Source: an uncultured delta proteobacterium (GTDB lineage Bacteria; Myxococcota_A; UBA9160; JAFDET01). From it: a DNA stretch of 64,000 nt. The DNA lies in assembly GCA_947259215.1 (NCBI GenBank), contig CAMYLJ010000038.1, positions 1 through 64,000 of the forward strand. The letters are read 5' to 3'. A program made the position numbers and the translations under genes. Positions 14,398 to 61,512 of the stretch are shown here, one piece after another. Under the pieces are notes generated by a model. The model was given only the letters and a program-made list of their open reading frames with translations. It was not told the DNA's origin and searched no databases. Each line of letters begins with the position of its first letter. Positions within the stretch are counted from its first letter, which is position 1.

Positions 14398-15183
14398 AGA
14401 TCCTCCTCACAGGCGCCACCGGTCAGCTCGGCCGCGCGCTGCAGGCGACCCTGGCGGACCACGACGTCGCCGCCCTCGGATCCCGCGAGCTGGACGTCAC
14501 CGATCTCGAGGCCGTCCGGGGCACCGTCGAGAGCACCGGCGCGGAGCTGGTGCTGAACGCCGCCGCCTGGACCGACGTGGACGGCGCCCAGGCGGACCCC
14601 GAGGGCGCCTTCCGCGTGAACGGGCTCGGCCCCCGGAACCTGGCGCTGGCCACCCGCGCCTGCGGCGCCGCACTGCTGCACGTCTCCACCGACTACGTCT
14701 TCGACGGCGAGTCGGACCGCCCCTACTGCGAGTTCGACGCGACGAACCCCCAGTCCGTCTACGGCCACAGCAAGCTCGCCGGCGAGGACGCGGTCCGGAC
14801 CTTCAACGAGCGTCACTGGATCGTGCGCACCGCCTGGCTCTACAGCCCCTGGCGCAAGAACTTCGCCCTCACCATGCGCGGGCTCGCCAGCCGCGACGAG
14901 GTGCGGGTGGTGAACGACCAGGTGGGATCGCCGACCTACGCGCCGCATCTGGCCCGCGGCATCGCGCGGCTCGTCGAGACCGACGCCTACGGCACCTACC
15001 ACCTGGCGGGCAGCGGCCAGGCCAGCTGGCGAGACGCCCGTGCACCCGGTCGGGACGGAAGCCTTTCCGCGGCCGGCGCCGCGGCCGCGCTTCGCGCCGC
15101 TCGTGAGCGTGCAGTCGCCCCGGATCGAGCTTCCGCCCTGGCAGGAGGGCGTGGGCGCCTTCGCCCGCGACCTCGAGGCCTAG
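14394..15183 (+). pseudogene. rmlD: dTDP-4-dehydrorhamnose reductase RmlD, broken by internal deletion and frameshift
   Basis: NADPH-dependent last step of dTDP-rhamnose synthesis. The first frame (GTG 14394) reads TGATGQLGRAL, the NAAAWTDVDGA segment, STDYVFDG and the YGHSKLAGE active site (Y-x3-K), up to GSGQASW at about 15029. The expected helix of roughly 12-20 residues is then missing and the family C-terminus (TPVHPVGTEAFPRP and on to RDLEA, stop at 15181-15183) continues in another frame from about 15034. The original frame would read on into antisense sequence. Either a real deletion or an assembly error; the bulk of the fold is intact. Confidence 0.85.
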
Positions 15184-16513: not shown

Positions 16514-17605
16514 ATGAGCACCGCCGAGACCCTGCCCTCCCAGCATCCCGCCGAAGGCGAGGGCGTCCGCGCCTCGCTCGAGGCCGTCTACAACTGGAAC
16601 TACGACAGCGAGATCGACGAGCTGCGCACCCTGTACGGGAATGCCCTGGAGCGGCAGTGGATCGCCGTGCGCGACCTCGACTGGGACCACGAGATCGATC
16701 GCGACGCCTTCTCCAGCAGCTTCAGCATCGGGGGCTTCCCGATCGAGAAGACCCGCTTCTGGCAAGGCCTGCCGCGCGACGTGCGCTGGGAAGTGTCGCG
16801 GCGCTCGGCTGCCTTCATGCTCTCGAACTTCCTGCACGGGGAGCAGGGAGCCCTGATGGTGGCCTCGCAGCTCGTGAACGCGGTGCCCCACATGGACGGC
16901 AAGTTCTACGCCGCCACCCAGACCCTGGACGAGGCGCGTCACGTGGAGGTCTTCGCCGCCTACGTGCGCAAGCTCGACGAGGTGCGCCCGATCGCGCCGT
17001 CGCTGAAGCAGCTGCTGGACAACGTGCTGGCGGCCGACGGCTGGATGCACAAGGCCGTGGGCATGCAGGTGGTGACGGAGGGGCTCGCCCTCTACAGCTT
17101 CCGCGACATGCGCAACAAGACCGAGGAGCCGCTGCTGAAGGAGCTTCTCACCTACGTGTCGCGGGACGAGGCGCGCCACACGGGCTACGGCATCAAGTAC
17201 CTGAACGCCGTGGTGCCGAGCCTCGACGAGCGTGAGCGCGGCGAGCTCGAGGACTTCGCCTTCGAGGCAGCGCGGCTGCTGGTGGATTCGCGGGCCGGCA
17301 CCTCCATGCGCGACTCGGTGTTCGAGATCTGGGAGGAGGCCGGAGTCGAGCGCACGACGGCCCTGGCCGAGCTGGCCCAGGAGCGCGACACGATCCGCCA
17401 GGCCATCGAGGAGAACGGCGGGCGCCGCGGCCCGATCCGCGGCTTCGTGATCCCGACCCTGCGCGCCATCGGTCTCTTCAGCGAGCGCATCGAGGGCCAC
17501 TTCGCCGACATGTTCCGCGCCAACCTCGGCGAGAGCTTCGGCAGCCTGTCCGACGACCCCCGCGACGTCCCCGAAGACCTGGAAGCCTGGGCCACCGGCT
17601 CCTGA
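16514..17605 (+). CDS. Ferritin-like di-iron (R2-like) oxidase/oxygenase family protein
   Basis: A 363-residue four-helix-bundle protein with a complete carboxylate di-iron ligand set: E110 (FLHGEQGAL), E140 and H143 (LDEARH), E189 (VVTEGLAL), E219 and H222 (RDEARH). This pattern is shared by ribonucleotide reductase R2, R2-like oxidases and AurF-type N-oxygenases; the substrate is not evident. There is no signal peptide. Two tandem palindromes immediately upstream suggest control by a ligand-responsive repressor of the FadR/GntR or TetR type, hinting at a role with fatty acids or a xenobiotic. It is monocistronic, ending at a strong palindrome. Confidence 0.85.
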   Translation: MSTAETLPSQHPAEGEGVRASLEAVYNWNYDSEIDELRTLYGNALERQWIAVRDLDWDHEIDRDAFSSSFSIGGFPIEKTRFWQGLPRDVRWEVSRRSAAFMLSNFLHGEQGALMVASQLVNAVPHMDGKFYAATQTLDEARHVEVFAAYVRKLDEVRPIAPSLKQLLDNVLAADGWMHKAVGMQVVTEGLALYSFRDMRNKTEEPLLKELLTYVSRDEARHTGYGIKYLNAVVPSLDERERGELEDFAFEAARLLVDSRAGTSMRDSVFEIWEEAGVERTTALAELAQERDTIRQAIEENGGRRGPIRGFVIPTLRAIGLFSERIEGHFADMFRANLGESFGSLSDDPRDVPEDLEAWATGS

Positions 17606-17625
17606 ACAACGCAAGCAACGGGGAC

Positions 17626-17700
17626 GGACCTAAGAAACGGGGACGGTCCTAAGAAACTCCGCAGCGGAGTTTCTTAGGACCGTCCCCGTTTCTTAGGTCC
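17626..17700. repeat. 75-bp palindrome, 37-bp arms with a 1-nt loop
   Basis: The arms 17626-17662 and 17664-17700 are perfect reverse complements around a single A. Each arm contains two tandem copies of an ACGGGGACGGTCC-TAAGAAA-like unit, with a further partial copy at 17618-17630. It sits exactly between the convergent di-iron and phosphatase-like genes and abuts the latter's stop, so it can act as a bidirectional terminator. The internal unit structure looks like a REP-type dispersed element; other copies are not in this window. Confidence 0.85.
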
Positions 17701-19350
17701 TCACGAGCCGGTGAGCGGCAGGACCTGGCCGTCGAGGCCGGCGGGCGGATCCACGCCCAGCAGGGTCGAGAGCGTGGGCGCCAGGTCGACGCTGGCGGCG
17801 CGGCCGCGCACGACCCCGGGCTCCACGCCGCGCCCCCAGAAGACGAGCGGCACCGCCCGGTCGTAGGGGTAGGGGGTGCCGTGGCTCGTGCCCGCCGGGT
17901 AGAGCGCGACCAGGCAGTCGCGCCGGGTCTGCACCGCGAAGTCGCCCCCGCGCTCGGCGTGATGGGAGTTGTGGTAGAGCTTGGCGAAGGGCGCGGGGCC
18001 CTCGGCCGCCGCCATCTCCTCCGCCGTCCAGACACGCTTCACCACCGGCTGCGCCACGAGCATGGCGCTGGCCTCCTCGACCACCCGCGCGACGGACACC
18101 CCGGCCACCGCCGCCCGCGCGCGGCGCACACGGAAGCGATAGCCCGCGCGCGCCAGCCACGGGCCTGCCTCCCCACCGGCGCTGCCGAAGGCCTCATCCA
18201 GCGCGAACTCGAGCGCCGCAGCGATGCCCTGCTGGACGACGCGACCCCCCTGCACCGGGCAGTCGCTGGTGCCGCTCTCCCACAACCACTCGGGAAGCGC
18301 GAGGACTCCGTGGTCGGACGTGAGCGCCACCACCAGGCTGCCGCGCCCGAGCCGGGCCTCGAGCGCGTCGAGGAAGCGGCCCAGAGCGGCGTCGAGACGC
18401 AGCAGCGCGTCGCGCGACTCCTGGCTCCGGGGGCCGTAGGCGTGTCCCACCAGATCCCCCGCCGAGAGCGAGAGGGCCAGCAGGTCCACCGCCGGACCGC
18501 TGCCCACTCCCTCGTTCGCGATCAGCTCGAGCGCGAACTCCAGGGTGACCTCGTCCAGGAACGGGGAGAAGTAGAGCGCGTCCAGGGTGACCGCCCGCTC
18601 GTCCTGCACGATCGGGTGGGGCGAGGTGGCCGAGAAGCGGTCGACCTCGCGCGGGTGCACGTCGGGTCGCGCGCCGTTCGGGGGCGCACCCGTCGCGTGC
18701 TCCCAGGTCGCGGGCAGGCGGCCCACGAAGCCCCCGTCCGCGCCAGACCCGTTGAACGCGGTCGCCCAGGCCGGCAGGGCGTCGCGGTAGTAGCCGCTCG
18801 TGTTGAACCCGAGCGCGCCGCGGCGGTCGAGCCAGTAGACGCCGTCGGGCCGCTGTCCCCCCAGGCTGATGGCGGCGCGGTCCTTGCCCGACACGCTGAA
18901 CACCCGCGTCCCCGGTCGCGCGGCGCGCAGCCAGTCGCCGAGCCCGGCGGCATCGATCGTGCGCGGAGAGCGTCCCGGCCCCCCGCCCAGCACCTGCGCG
19001 GCGGGATCGGAATCCGCGACGCAGTAGAGGACCTCGTCGCTGGCGGGATCGACGAAGTGGTTGCCGGGAACGCCCACGGACCCGGGATGGCGCCCGGTCA
19101 CGGCGGCGACGTGGCCGGGGCAGGTCTCGCTGTCCGCGTGGGCCAGGGCGGCGTCGGCGAAGACGCGTCCCTCGCGCGCCAGGCGACCGAGCCCTCCCGG
19201 CAGCCCCGGATCCAGGCGATCCGCCCGCAATTGGTCCACGACCAGGAGCAGCGCCAGGCGCGGCTCGCCGGACTCGACGCCACAACCGAGGACGGCCAGC
19301 GCAGCGATCCCCGCAAGACCGGCGATCAGTCGCCGCGGCAGTTCCGGCAA
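17701..19350 (-). CDS. Alkaline-phosphatase-superfamily lipoprotein
   Basis: A 549-residue predicted lipoprotein; the TTG at 19350 gives a short signal with lipobox VLGC, whereas longer starts lack one. The fold is that of alkaline phosphatase/phosphodiesterase enzymes: LLLVVDQLRADRLD holds the first metal Asp, THE ADSETCPGHVAAVTGRHP region holds the probable nucleophile (Thr or Ser), LSLSAGDLVGHAYGP a metal Asp and His, and LTSDHGVLALP the Asp-His pair; a late H-x-H cluster (SHGTPY) supplies the last ligand. It probably hydrolyses phosphomonoesters or diesters in the periplasm. It overlaps the end of fur by about 25 bp. Substrate is unknown. Confidence 0.85.
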   Translation of the reverse strand: MPELPRRLIAGLAGIAALAVLGCGVESGEPRLALLLVVDQLRADRLDPGLPGGLGRLAREGRVFADAALAHADSETCPGHVAAVTGRHPGSVGVPGNHFVDPASDEVLYCVADSDPAAQVLGGGPGRSPRTIDAAGLGDWLRAARPGTRVFSVSGKDRAAISLGGQRPDGVYWLDRRGALGFNTSGYYRDALPAWATAFNGSGADGGFVGRLPATWEHATGAPPNGARPDVHPREVDRFSATSPHPIVQDERAVTLDALYFSPFLDEVTLEFALELIANEGVGSGPAVDLLALSLSAGDLVGHAYGPRSQESRDALLRLDAALGRFLDALEARLGRGSLVVALTSDHGVLALPEWLWESGTSDCPVQGGRVVQQGIAAALEFALDEAFGSAGGEAGPWLARAGYRFRVRRARAAVAGVSVARVVEEASAMLVAQPVVKRVWTAEEMAAAEGPAPFAKLYHNSHHAERGGDFAVQTRRDCLVALYPAGTSHGTPYPYDRAVPLVFWGRGVEPGVVRGRAASVDLAPTLSTLLGVDPPAGLDGQVLPLTGS

Positions 19351-19757
19351 TGCCCGTAGAGCTCGTGGCGATGGCGCAGGATCTGGAACCCGTAGCGCTC
19401 CGCGATGTCGTTCTGCGCGCTCTCGATCATCTGGCACTCGAACTCCACGATCTTGCCGCAGCGAACGCAGACCAGGTGGTCGTGGTGCTCGTGATGGATC
19501 TCGTAGCGGGTGACCCCGTCCTCGAAGCGACGCTCGTGCGCCAGGCCCGCTTCGCAGAGGAGCTTCATCGTGCGGTAGACCGTCGTGTATCCGATGTGCG
19601 GATGCTTGTCGCGGACCCGCCCGTAGATGTCCTCGGCCGTGATGTGTCCGCGCGCCTCGAGGAAGGCCTCGAGGATGGCGTCGCGCTGCCGCGTGTGGCG
19701 GAGATTGTGGCCTTCGAGGAACCGCGCCAACGACTCGCGCTCGACGTCGTGCGCCAT
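19326..19757 (-). CDS. fur: Fur-family metalloregulator
   Basis: DNA-binding repressor sensing iron, zinc or peroxide. The product from ATG 19757 is 143 residues: winged helix with RHTRQRDAILEAF and TTVYRTMKLLCEAG, then the dimerisation domain with HHEHHDHLVCVRCGKIVEFE and a C-terminal CRNC. The two CxxC pairs form the structural zinc site. An in-frame ATG at 19793 would add 12 residues; neither start has a clear ribosome site. Subfamily (Fur, PerR, Zur) cannot be fixed from motifs alone. The phosphatase-like gene follows with overlap. Confidence 0.92.
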   Translation of the reverse strand: MAHDVERESLARFLEGHNLRHTRQRDAILEAFLEARGHITAEDIYGRVRDKHPHIGYTTVYRTMKLLCEAGLAHERRFEDGVTRYEIHHEHHDHLVCVRCGKIVEFECQMIESAQNDIAERYGFQILRHRHELYGHCRNCRGD

Positions 19758-32212: not shown

Positions 32213-33475
32213 ATGAGGCTCCCGCGCGCCCTCGTCTTCCTGGGAGCGGCCCTGGCCTGCGGGAGCGGAGCGCCCGAGGGCATCGTGGTCAGCTTCCCGG
32301 GGAGCGCGCTCGGCGCCGAGGCGGAGCTGCTCCAGAGCCAGCTCGAGCGCTTCATGGCGCTCCAGCCCGAGATCCGGGTCGTGCAGCAGCGCACGCCCGA
32401 CGCGGCCGACCAGCGCCACCGGCTCTATGTGCAATGGCTGAACGCCTGGGCCGACGACCCCGACATCCTCCAGCTCGACGTCATCTGGACGCCGGAATTC
32501 GCGGCGGCGGGCTGGACGCTCCCGCTGAAGCGGTTCGAGCCCGACACGTCGGACTTCTTCCCCGCTACCGTCGCGACCAATAGCTGGCGCGGCGAGCTCC
32601 ACGCGGTGCCGTGGTTCGTGGACGTGGGGCTCCTCTACTGGCGGAGCGACCTGCTCGGTCGCGCGCCGCGGAGCCTGGACGAGCTCCTCGACGCCGCGTC
32701 GCGCGAGCGCCGCGTGCGCCACGGCTGGGTCTGGCAAGGCGCCCGCTACGAAGGCCTGGTGACGGTCTTCGTCGAGCTGCTGGGCGCCTTCGGCGCGGCG
32801 ATCCTCGACGACGCGGGCCGCGTGGTGGTGGACTCGCCGCAGGCCGTACGCGCCCTCGAGGTGCTACGGAACGCCCTCGACGCGGGCGTGGTGCCGCGCG
32901 ACGCGCTCTCCTGGCAGGAGGAGCAGACGCGCTTCGCGTTCCAGAACGGCCACGCCCTCTTCATGCGCAACTGGCCCTACGCCTACCCGCTGATGCAGCA
33001 GCCCGGGGAGTCGGCGGTGGCGGGACGCTTCCGGGTGACGGCCCTGCCCGCGGCGCCGGGGGGCCGGCCGAGCGCCGCGCTCGGGGGCTCGCAGCTCGCC
33101 ATCAACGCGCGCAGCGACGAGCCCGACGCCGCCTGGCAGGTGATCGCCTTTCTCACCCATCCCGATCAGATGCGCGAGCGCGCCGAGCGCCTCGGCCAGT
33201 ATCCGCCGCGCCGTTCTCTCTACGCCGGCGACTCGCTCGCCGGAGCGCTCGCCATCCCGCCGGCCGAGGCCCGGCAGGTGATCGAGCACGCCGTGGCGCG
33301 CCCCGCGACGCCCGTGTACACCGAGCTGTCGGGCGTGCTCCAGATCTGGCTGCACCGCGCACTCAGCGGGCAGGAGTCTCCGGAGGACGCGCTGGCGGGA
33401 GCGGCCCGGGAGATCCGCAAACTGTTGAAACGCAGCGGCCTGGCGGCGGAGACGCGGGACGGGATGGCGCCGTGA
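32213..33475 (+). CDS. Sugar ABC transporter substrate-binding lipoprotein
   Basis: A 420-residue family 1 extracellular binding protein of the trehalose/maltose type. From ATG 32213 the N-terminus is a lipoprotein signal (lipobox ALAC). Segments such as DILQLDVIWTPEFAAAGW, the AVPWFVDVGLLYWRSDLL region, NGHALFMRNWPYAYPLM and GGSQLAINARSDEPDAAW are characteristic. The family delivers di- and oligosaccharides to the permeases; the exact sugar is unknown. It is followed by two permeases (1-bp TGATG overlaps) and an ATPase. A longer start at 32177 lacks a signal. Confidence 0.92.
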   Translation: MRLPRALVFLGAALACGSGAPEGIVVSFPGSALGAEAELLQSQLERFMALQPEIRVVQQRTPDAADQRHRLYVQWLNAWADDPDILQLDVIWTPEFAAAGWTLPLKRFEPDTSDFFPATVATNSWRGELHAVPWFVDVGLLYWRSDLLGRAPRSLDELLDAASRERRVRHGWVWQGARYEGLVTVFVELLGAFGAAILDDAGRVVVDSPQAVRALEVLRNALDAGVVPRDALSWQEEQTRFAFQNGHALFMRNWPYAYPLMQQPGESAVAGRFRVTALPAAPGGRPSAALGGSQLAINARSDEPDAAWQVIAFLTHPDQMRERAERLGQYPPRRSLYAGDSLAGALAIPPAEARQVIEHAVARPATPVYTELSGVLQIWLHRALSGQESPEDALAGAAREIRKLLKRSGLAAETRDGMAP

Positions 33476-60684: not shown

Positions 60685-61512
60685 CTACCCCAGCACCCGC
60701 TCGTGATTGGCGTAGACGTTGAGGGCGCGGCCGCGCAGGAATCCCACCAGGGTGACTCCGGCGCTCTCAGCCAGCTCCACCGCCAGGGAGGAGGGCGCGG
60801 AGACCGCCGCCAGCAGCGGAATCCGGGCCGCCAGGGCCTTCTGCACGATCTCGTAGGAGACCCGCCCCGACACCAGCAGGACGTGTCCCGCCAGCGGCAG
60901 GCGCCCCTCCCGCGCCGCCCAGCCCACCACCTTGTCCACGGCGTTGTGGCGGCCGACGTCCTCGCGCAGGGCCAGGAGCGACCCGTCGCCGGCGAAGAGC
61001 GCCGCCGCGTGCAGCCCCCCGGTGGCCTCGAAGACGGACTGGGCGCCGCGCATGCGCTCGGGCAGGCGGTAGAGGAGCTCCGCGGGCAGGCGCAGCGGGT
61101 CGTGCAGGGGAGGTGCGCTGGCCAGAGCGTTCTCGATGGTGGCCTTGCCGCAGATGCCGCAGCTCGAGCTGGCGTAGAGGTTGCGGCGCAGGCGCTCCCA
61201 GTCCACCTCGACCCCGTCGGCGAGGGTCGCACGGATCACGTTGTCCGCCGCCTCGGGATCCGAGGCCAGGCTGCAGTGGCGCACCGAAGTCACGTCCTCG
61301 AACCGCTCCACCACGCGCTCGGTCACGAGGAAGCCGGTCGCGAGCTCGGCGTCCGCGCCCGGAGTCCGCATCACCACCGCCACGGGCGTCGGCCCGATCT
61401 GGATCTCCAGCGGCTCCTCGCAGACCACGCGGTCCGTGCCGGGGTCGCAGGCGGCGTCGGCGAAGCGCGACATCCGCACGTCGCGGATCGAGTCGTCGTC
61501 GCCGGGCGGCAT
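60685..61512 (-). CDS. fdhD: FdhD, formate dehydrogenase sulfurtransferase
   Basis: Transfers sulfur from IscS to the molybdenum cofactor of formate dehydrogenases. The 275-residue product has the essential Cys pair in SSSCGICGKATIEN, and LATGFLVTERVV and REDVGRHNAVDKVVG, all typical. It shares one base with the ileS stop (TGATG) and precedes its client enzyme by 29 bp. Confidence 0.96.
   Translation of the reverse strand: MPPGDDDSIRDVRMSRFADAACDPGTDRVVCEEPLEIQIGPTPVAVVMRTPGADAELATGFLVTERVVERFEDVTSVRHCSLASDPEAADNVIRATLADGVEVDWERLRRNLYASSSCGICGKATIENALASAPPLHDPLRLPAELLYRLPERMRGAQSVFEATGGLHAAALFAGDGSLLALREDVGRHNAVDKVVGWAAREGRLPLAGHVLLVSGRVSYEIVQKALAARIPLLAAVSAPSSLAVELAESAGVTLVGFLRGRALNVYANHERVLG

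Follow-up and report, generated by a model that had tools for sequence, protein, structure and literature searches.

A perfect 75-bp palindrome between convergent genes of an uncultured delta proteobacterium: a probable REPIN-like hairpin with a cognate RAYT-type transposase

What is a long, perfect palindrome doing between the ends of two genes, and how did it come to be there? The question is raised by positions 17626–17700 of a 64,000-nucleotide stretch of DNA from an uncultured delta proteobacterium (the window, meaning the whole of this stretch; its G+C content is 72%). Two convergent genes enclose the palindrome, with their stop codons facing it. To the left is an AurF-like di-iron oxygenase gene (16514–17605, plus strand; Pfam AurF, E 1.1e-16), with 20 nt between its stop codon and the palindrome, and to the right is a type I phosphodiesterase/alkaline phosphatase-like gene (17701–19437, minus strand; its start is uncertain, being placed at 19350 in a second gene prediction), whose stop codon directly abuts it.

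The first-pass annotation described arms of 37 bp that match perfectly to either side of a single base, and this is confirmed: the left arm (17626–17662, plus) and the right arm (17664–17700, minus) are 37 nt each and 100% complementary, with a single A between them at 17663; the loop is also present at other loci as its reverse complement, with a central T. The part common to other copies, TAAGAAAC-GGGGACGGTCC-TAAGAAAC-loop-(reverse complement), spans 17631–17695, and within it the 19-nt repeat unit GGGGACGGTCCTAAGAAAC is present at 17639–17657 on the plus strand and at 17669–17687 on the minus strand. Outside this core lie the mutually complementary outer arms GGACC (17626–17630, plus) and GGTCC (17696–17700, minus), which vary between loci. 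Each arm had also been described as two diverged tandem units, and this is true of the left side, where an extra diverged outer unit at 17613–17631 (plus strand) is identical to 17632–17650 at 17 of 19 positions; it does not hold on the right, where there is one unit and the outer one is a 13-nt remnant, GTTTCTTAGGTCC, at 17688–17700. The predicted folds are very stable: −58 kcal/mol for single-stranded DNA of 17590–17720 (shuffle mean −20.6, sd 2.8, z −13.5, with none of 200 shuffles as good) and −76 kcal/mol for RNA of the palindrome region (z −14). In an Rfam search of 17400–17900 the six matches were to microRNA-precursor families, and each fell below its gathering score; the best of them, mir-627 (46.6 bits compared with 86, E 7.6e-10), was rejected as generic hairpin similarity. 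Within the whole window the 11-mer GGGGACGGTCC has five matches allowing up to one mismatch, three of them inside the palindrome. The chance expectation is 4.8, and nothing else in the window can be singled out as a second copy.

Copies are nonetheless found throughout the genome (5.7 Mb in 128 contigs). A genome-wide unit search had been proposed, with uniqueness as the outcome that would speak against a REP-like element, and it yields 45 matches to GGGGACGGTCCTAAGAAAC with up to three mismatches compared with none for the reversed control, so that the unit is not unique. Twenty complete palindromes of this type, which we refer to as family 1, could be read. Eighteen are on contigs C5 (five), C8, C10, C12, C15, C29, C38 (that of the window), C40 (two), C45, C48 (two) and C56 (two), and two further ones are at C30:11 and, in more diverged form, at C40:33667. 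The other matches include half units at C40:14376 and C56:36440, a unit on C61 that is cut by the contig end, and the pair of units bounding a transposase element described below; a match on C69 with three mismatches is taken as chance. As C30 begins and C61 ends at a family 1 unit, there may be further palindromes beyond those counted. The core usually consists of TAAGAAAC-GGGGACGGTCC-TNAGAAAC, followed by a loop of 7–16 nt (18 loci) and then the mirror image; the palindrome at C5:187089 is without the outer TAAGAAAC. The copies are uniform, with 30 of 972 arm positions off the consensus (18 loci), and this low divergence fits recent copying while giving no date.

Could such copies be products of misassembly at inverted repeats? 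Several contigs do start or end at units, with family 1 units at base 11 of C30 and at 14980 of 14998 on C61, and units of a second family (see below) at 61179 of 61224 on C40 and at 33399 of 33436 on C43. However, the flanks differ at every copy, coding frames reach the edge of many elements or continue into them, and comparable families are present in other genomes, and we regard an assembly artefact as barely credible.

A search for a RAYT-type transposase had also been suggested, and three Y1_Tnp matches are present in the genome (C26:97592–97921, C26:33789 and one on C58). The first, RAYT1, is an intact frame of 291 aa in whose translation an HVH motif and a tyrosine within LYVHRNP can be seen; it matches Y1_Tnp with E 5.3e-10 and NCBIfam REP_Tyr_transpos with E 3.6e-18 (65.8 bits, below that model's cut-off of 80), and a sequence search of the PDB gave no match at E 0.001. 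Only a single RAYT1 gene was found in this genome. The gene (L034 2080–2955, contig C26) lies between TAAGAAACGGGGACGGTCCT and the reverse complement of TAAGAAACGGGGACGGTCCT, such that family 1 units are inverted around it with a 20-nt exact inverted repeat. The transposase is therefore framed by the palindrome's own units and, together with the inverted unit pairs across the genome, this supports the suggestion in the first-pass annotation of a recently copied REP-like element.

From these sequence features we consider it highly probable that the palindrome is a non-autonomous, RAYT-mobilised hairpin, that is, a REPIN-like doublet of two inverted TIRYT-type transposon ends. The substrate of RAYT1, a Y1/HUH enzyme, would be the GGGGACGGTCC-TAAGAAAC end in its folded, single-stranded form, which the enzyme would recognise, cut and rejoin, copying the short hairpin to new sites. 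The insertions would persist mainly where they are harmless, at the tail-to-tail stops of convergent genes, often providing the stop codon, and an inserted hairpin may, as a by-product, serve as a bidirectional transcript end or as a shield for the mRNA 3′ end.

The RAYT1 element is itself flanked by a 53-nt direct duplication (L034 2008–2060 and 3048–3100, contig C26; 50 of 53 positions identical). The duplicated segment holds the ends of two convergent genes, such that both keep their stop codons. A direct duplication of this kind is not what the IS200/IS605 mechanism predicts. Long direct duplications do not accompany the short palindromes, none of 18 exceeding the largest background value of 35, and RAYT1 alone is above it (91).

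The second Y1_Tnp match, RAYT2 (C26:33789; L035 1760–2731), is 323 aa long and 54% identical to RAYT1 over 189 aa, and it is framed by a different, GGGGACG-type unit, GGGGACGTTGGTTNAGAAGTTCA. This unit has 56 matches in the genome (none for the reversed control) and forms palindromes of its own (family 2; loci L035 and L059–L086). There are thus two predicted RAYTs in one genome, each with a separate palindrome population, and with short and nearly uniform palindromes belonging to each, the two related proteins are a natural pair with which to test the bases that a RAYT recognises. The C-terminal helix-turn-helix expected of TIRYT transposases (Bac_DnaA_C, HTH_23 or HTH_28) is no more than hinted at: Bac_DnaA_C ranks second among the Pfam matches of each protein, under the cut-off in both cases (E 0.19 and 0.28). 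The third Y1_Tnp match (L036, about 2100–2420, contig C58; E 5.5e-28) is in an open frame of 115 aa that may encode a truncated IS200-type transposase, and the 1.3 kb read around it shows neither family 1 nor family 2 palindromes.

On its sequence organisation the palindrome is a new instance of a class of bacterial repeat already described: it resembles REPINs and has its nearest counterparts in TIRYT/TIRtron elements. In the sections of PMC3733652 and PMC6006769 that concern them, TIRYTs or TIRtrons (TnpAREP subclass 2.1) are described as transposase genes framed by inverted repeats, copies of which are moderately abundant and in many cases dimeric. The elements described here share with them a Y1/HUH transposase with a C-terminal extension, terminal inverted repeats starting with GGGG, and the presence of end copies as dimers in the genome. 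The motif GGGGWSAS is given in those sections for some or the majority of the terminal inverted repeats, not all, and the ends GGGGACGG fit it at seven of eight positions, with G rather than A at position 7. There are two differences. First, the family 1 arms have an extra direct repeat, with TAAGAAAC flanking GGGGACGGTCC. Second, the outer arms of family 1 vary with the locus and, at most loci tested, are complementary to each other. By their ends, the putative products RAYT1 and RAYT2 most resemble subclass 2.1, near whose transposase genes REP-like sequences were not found according to the relevant section of PMC6006769.

With the REPINs and BIMEs of Pseudomonas and E. coli, as portrayed in parts of PMC3116915 and PMC2817692, the palindromes share inverted doublets forming one long hairpin, a mostly extragenic location, a cognate RAYT framed by its own units, and compensatory changes between the two sides. 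However, neither GTAG nor GTGG occurs in the family 1 unit or consensus core, which sets it apart from the classic GTAG REP; there are 20 family 1 palindromes, whereas REPs typically have more than 100 repeat copies; and the family 1 units are only 7–16 nt apart with a self-complementary loop, unlike REPINs, so that nearly the whole element is one duplex. A Y1/HUH catalytic domain acting on structured DNA ends is a feature in common with IS200/IS605 elements (PMC6006769, in the portion dealing with these), although the family 1 ends are inverted repeats and not subterminal hairpins, and they have a non-autonomous palindrome population. A search of the open-access literature for GGGGACGGTCC or its complement gave, by titles and the starts of abstracts, nothing on genome repeats.

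By a simple codon model, convergent genes flank 14 of 19 family 1 loci (at the C15 locus the right-hand gene is a tRNA), compared with 9 convergent pairs among the 58 adjacent gene pairs in the window (binomial p 2.5e-8). They also flank 18 of 26 family 2 loci, by comparison with the same window pairs (p 1.2e-9). A predicted stop codon lies inside the family 1 element at 14 of 33 facing gene ends, a count that omits one implausible call at −267, and in seven of these it is the leading TAA. REPs lying at the ends of genes, and repeats that provide a stop codon, are both described in a part of PMC3733652.

This position suggests an alternative: that the palindrome is a bidirectional intrinsic terminator under selection, whose hairpin and T-rich tract (GTTTCTTA) on both strands end convergent transcripts, and whose copies have been spread or kept for that purpose. 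There are six terminator-like matches, nested and three to a strand (shuffle mean 0.3), and both the strength of the RNA fold (−76 kcal/mol) and the 14 of 19 family 1 copies between convergent genes are as expected of a terminator. However, it seems unlikely that the palindromes are terminators of this kind. First, the T-rich tract is base-paired in the full hairpin fold. Second, family 2 is equally biased towards convergent genes (18 of 26), yet its palindromes end in CCCC with no common T tract after them. Third, the units also frame a transposase gene, which a plain terminator leaves unexplained. Finally, survival of harmless insertions predicts the position at gene ends equally well, and we interpret the preference mainly in this way. 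A role of the palindrome in forming transcript ends is possible, as a candidate function.

The two arms of each palindrome tend to change together. Off-consensus changes are symmetric between the arms in 13 cases and asymmetric in four in family 1 (18 loci), and 30 compared with three in family 2 (25 loci), although part of this symmetry comes from the shared descent of subtypes and the events are not all independent. Compensatory changes of this type in REPINs are treated in a part of PMC3116915. Arm homogenisation is also what replication template switching would give, as set out in passages of PMC8604942 and PMC3820800, and a purely mutational origin of the palindrome, by local inverted duplication through template switching and without transposition, is a further alternative. 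We consider it very improbable: a nearly identical core is present at 20 loci and units lie at both ends of a transposase gene, whereas a local duplication cannot spread through a genome. Template switching is thus refuted as the sole origin, and it may act later, on the arms of an inserted element.

There is also a second form of symmetry. Up to 7 nt outside the family 1 core are specific to the locus and yet self-complementary. Past the first 8 nt of the outer arm (GTTTCTTA), a mean of 3.4 nt are complementary within a locus compared with 0.8 between loci (19 loci), and in a permutation test the observed sum is 64, the largest permuted sum is 40, and none of 20,000 permutations reaches the observed value; beyond 10 nt the means are 1.9 within and 0.3 between loci. 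(The 19 loci exclude C30:11, C40:14376, C56:36440, the C61 unit, the RAYT1 ends and C69; C5:187089, which is without the outer TAAGAAAC, is additionally excluded from the 18 loci of the symmetry count.) The complementarity derives partly from remnants of outer units (GGNCC), and the loci with GGGGCGC, ATCCGG, GTTTCC and GGCTCG share little with one another; at four of the 19 loci the outer-arm match is 0 or 1 nt.

Precise insertion of a fixed element leaves these locus-specific outer arms unexplained. A tentative reading, which we would put forward as possible rather than probable, is that the family 1 hairpin captures host sequence at insertion, with the result that the outermost 2–7 bp of most palindromes vary by locus and are complementary within it. 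Two routes could be envisaged. RAYT1 might insert at short pre-existing inverted repeats, using a hairpin target, or strand transfer or repair might, by template switching, copy one flank into the other arm, giving an ‘inverted target duplication’. If host sequence is captured, either route would leave an insertion mark that is unusual among Y1 transposases and informative about the movement of RAYT hairpins, the spread of which is called poorly understood in a passage of PMC8266576; the locus-specific symmetric arms are a concrete signature to look for. The two distant ends of RAYT1 have no symmetry beyond the core, as might be expected if one arm is copied into the other in short hairpins, although this is a single case. 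The right arm of the C15 palindrome extends into a tRNA-Leu gene at its 3′ end (CCA), its left arm is inside an open frame, and pre-existing symmetry is slightly favoured at this locus. The ancestral outer arm was sought at the orthologous gene ends of relatives, where the junctions are rearranged and the ends too diverged to show it.

The outer symmetry is a feature of family 1. In family 2 (26 loci for gene context, and 25 for symmetry after exclusion of RAYT2 at L035; L061, L078 and L080, in which only one arm could be located, are not included) the outer arms beyond the first nucleotide are not above background, with 2,215 of 20,000 permutations reaching the observed value, and with the first nucleotide included 156 of 20,000 do so; L075 is an exception, with 7 nt. 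In the palindrome family of the genome designated G075, none of the six usable palindromes (from 30 loci fetched) has outer symmetry above background. At the window palindrome, both convergent genes end in TGS (ACCGGCTC-N-TGA), encoded in a 13-nt inverted match with one mismatch between 17593–17605 and 17701–17713. Its inverted flank score of 22 is within the cross-locus background (mean 18.8, 95th percentile 26, maximum 33), and the match is therefore not relied upon as a sign of copying; among 19 places only C40:21502, with a score of 35, is above the background maximum.

How far do these repeats extend beyond this genome? The 79 genomes searched contain no other member of the genus. A 16-nt piece of the unit, allowing up to one mismatch, has 43 matches in its own genome and 21 in 18 of the 78 others, with a maximum of three in any one, whereas its reversed control has four in those 78; the match in one of them (G044) is part of a palindrome of another type. 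Within the taxonomic family, G002 and G003 have no match to this piece and G001 has one with a single mismatch, on another contig. In G001–G003 the region downstream of the oxygenase orthologue shows no family 1 unit, and the junction with the phosphatase gene is rearranged, G001 having an extra open frame between the two genes and G003 having them on different contigs; no phosphatase orthologue was found in G002 at E 1e-60.

Homologues of RAYT1 (E up to 1e-20) are present in 20 of the 79 genomes, including its own, and at 14 of 29 RAYT homologue loci of the order (its own two included) the gene is flanked on both sides by GGGGAC, after which the sequence is private. G002 and G003 have 88 and 101 units, respectively, of one private type seen at their RAYTs, and G075 has 80 units of another type seen at its own RAYT, with no matches for any of the reversed controls; the G002/G003-type unit has no match in G001 or G075.

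The convergent junction that carries the family 1 palindrome at C5:108711 has orthologues in G002 and G003 (L147 and L146, from another genus), where the genes are still convergent and one small open frame has been added. In both genomes a palindrome stands at this junction too, of the type private to them, as though repeats tended to land where genes meet tail to tail. The protein encoded to the left of C5:108711 ends in LR in two relatives and in LRS in the genome studied here, consistent with a final codon contributed by the element.

Finally, a scan of genome contigs with a 24-nt form of the unit, which may omit the source genome and very near ones, gave one contig, L058 (JAOTZH010000250.1, labelled Gemmatimonadota). 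At positions 2145–2245 it carries a longer, related palindrome, built on the same GGGGACGGTCCTTAGAAAC unit and with a doubled TTAGAAAC inside.
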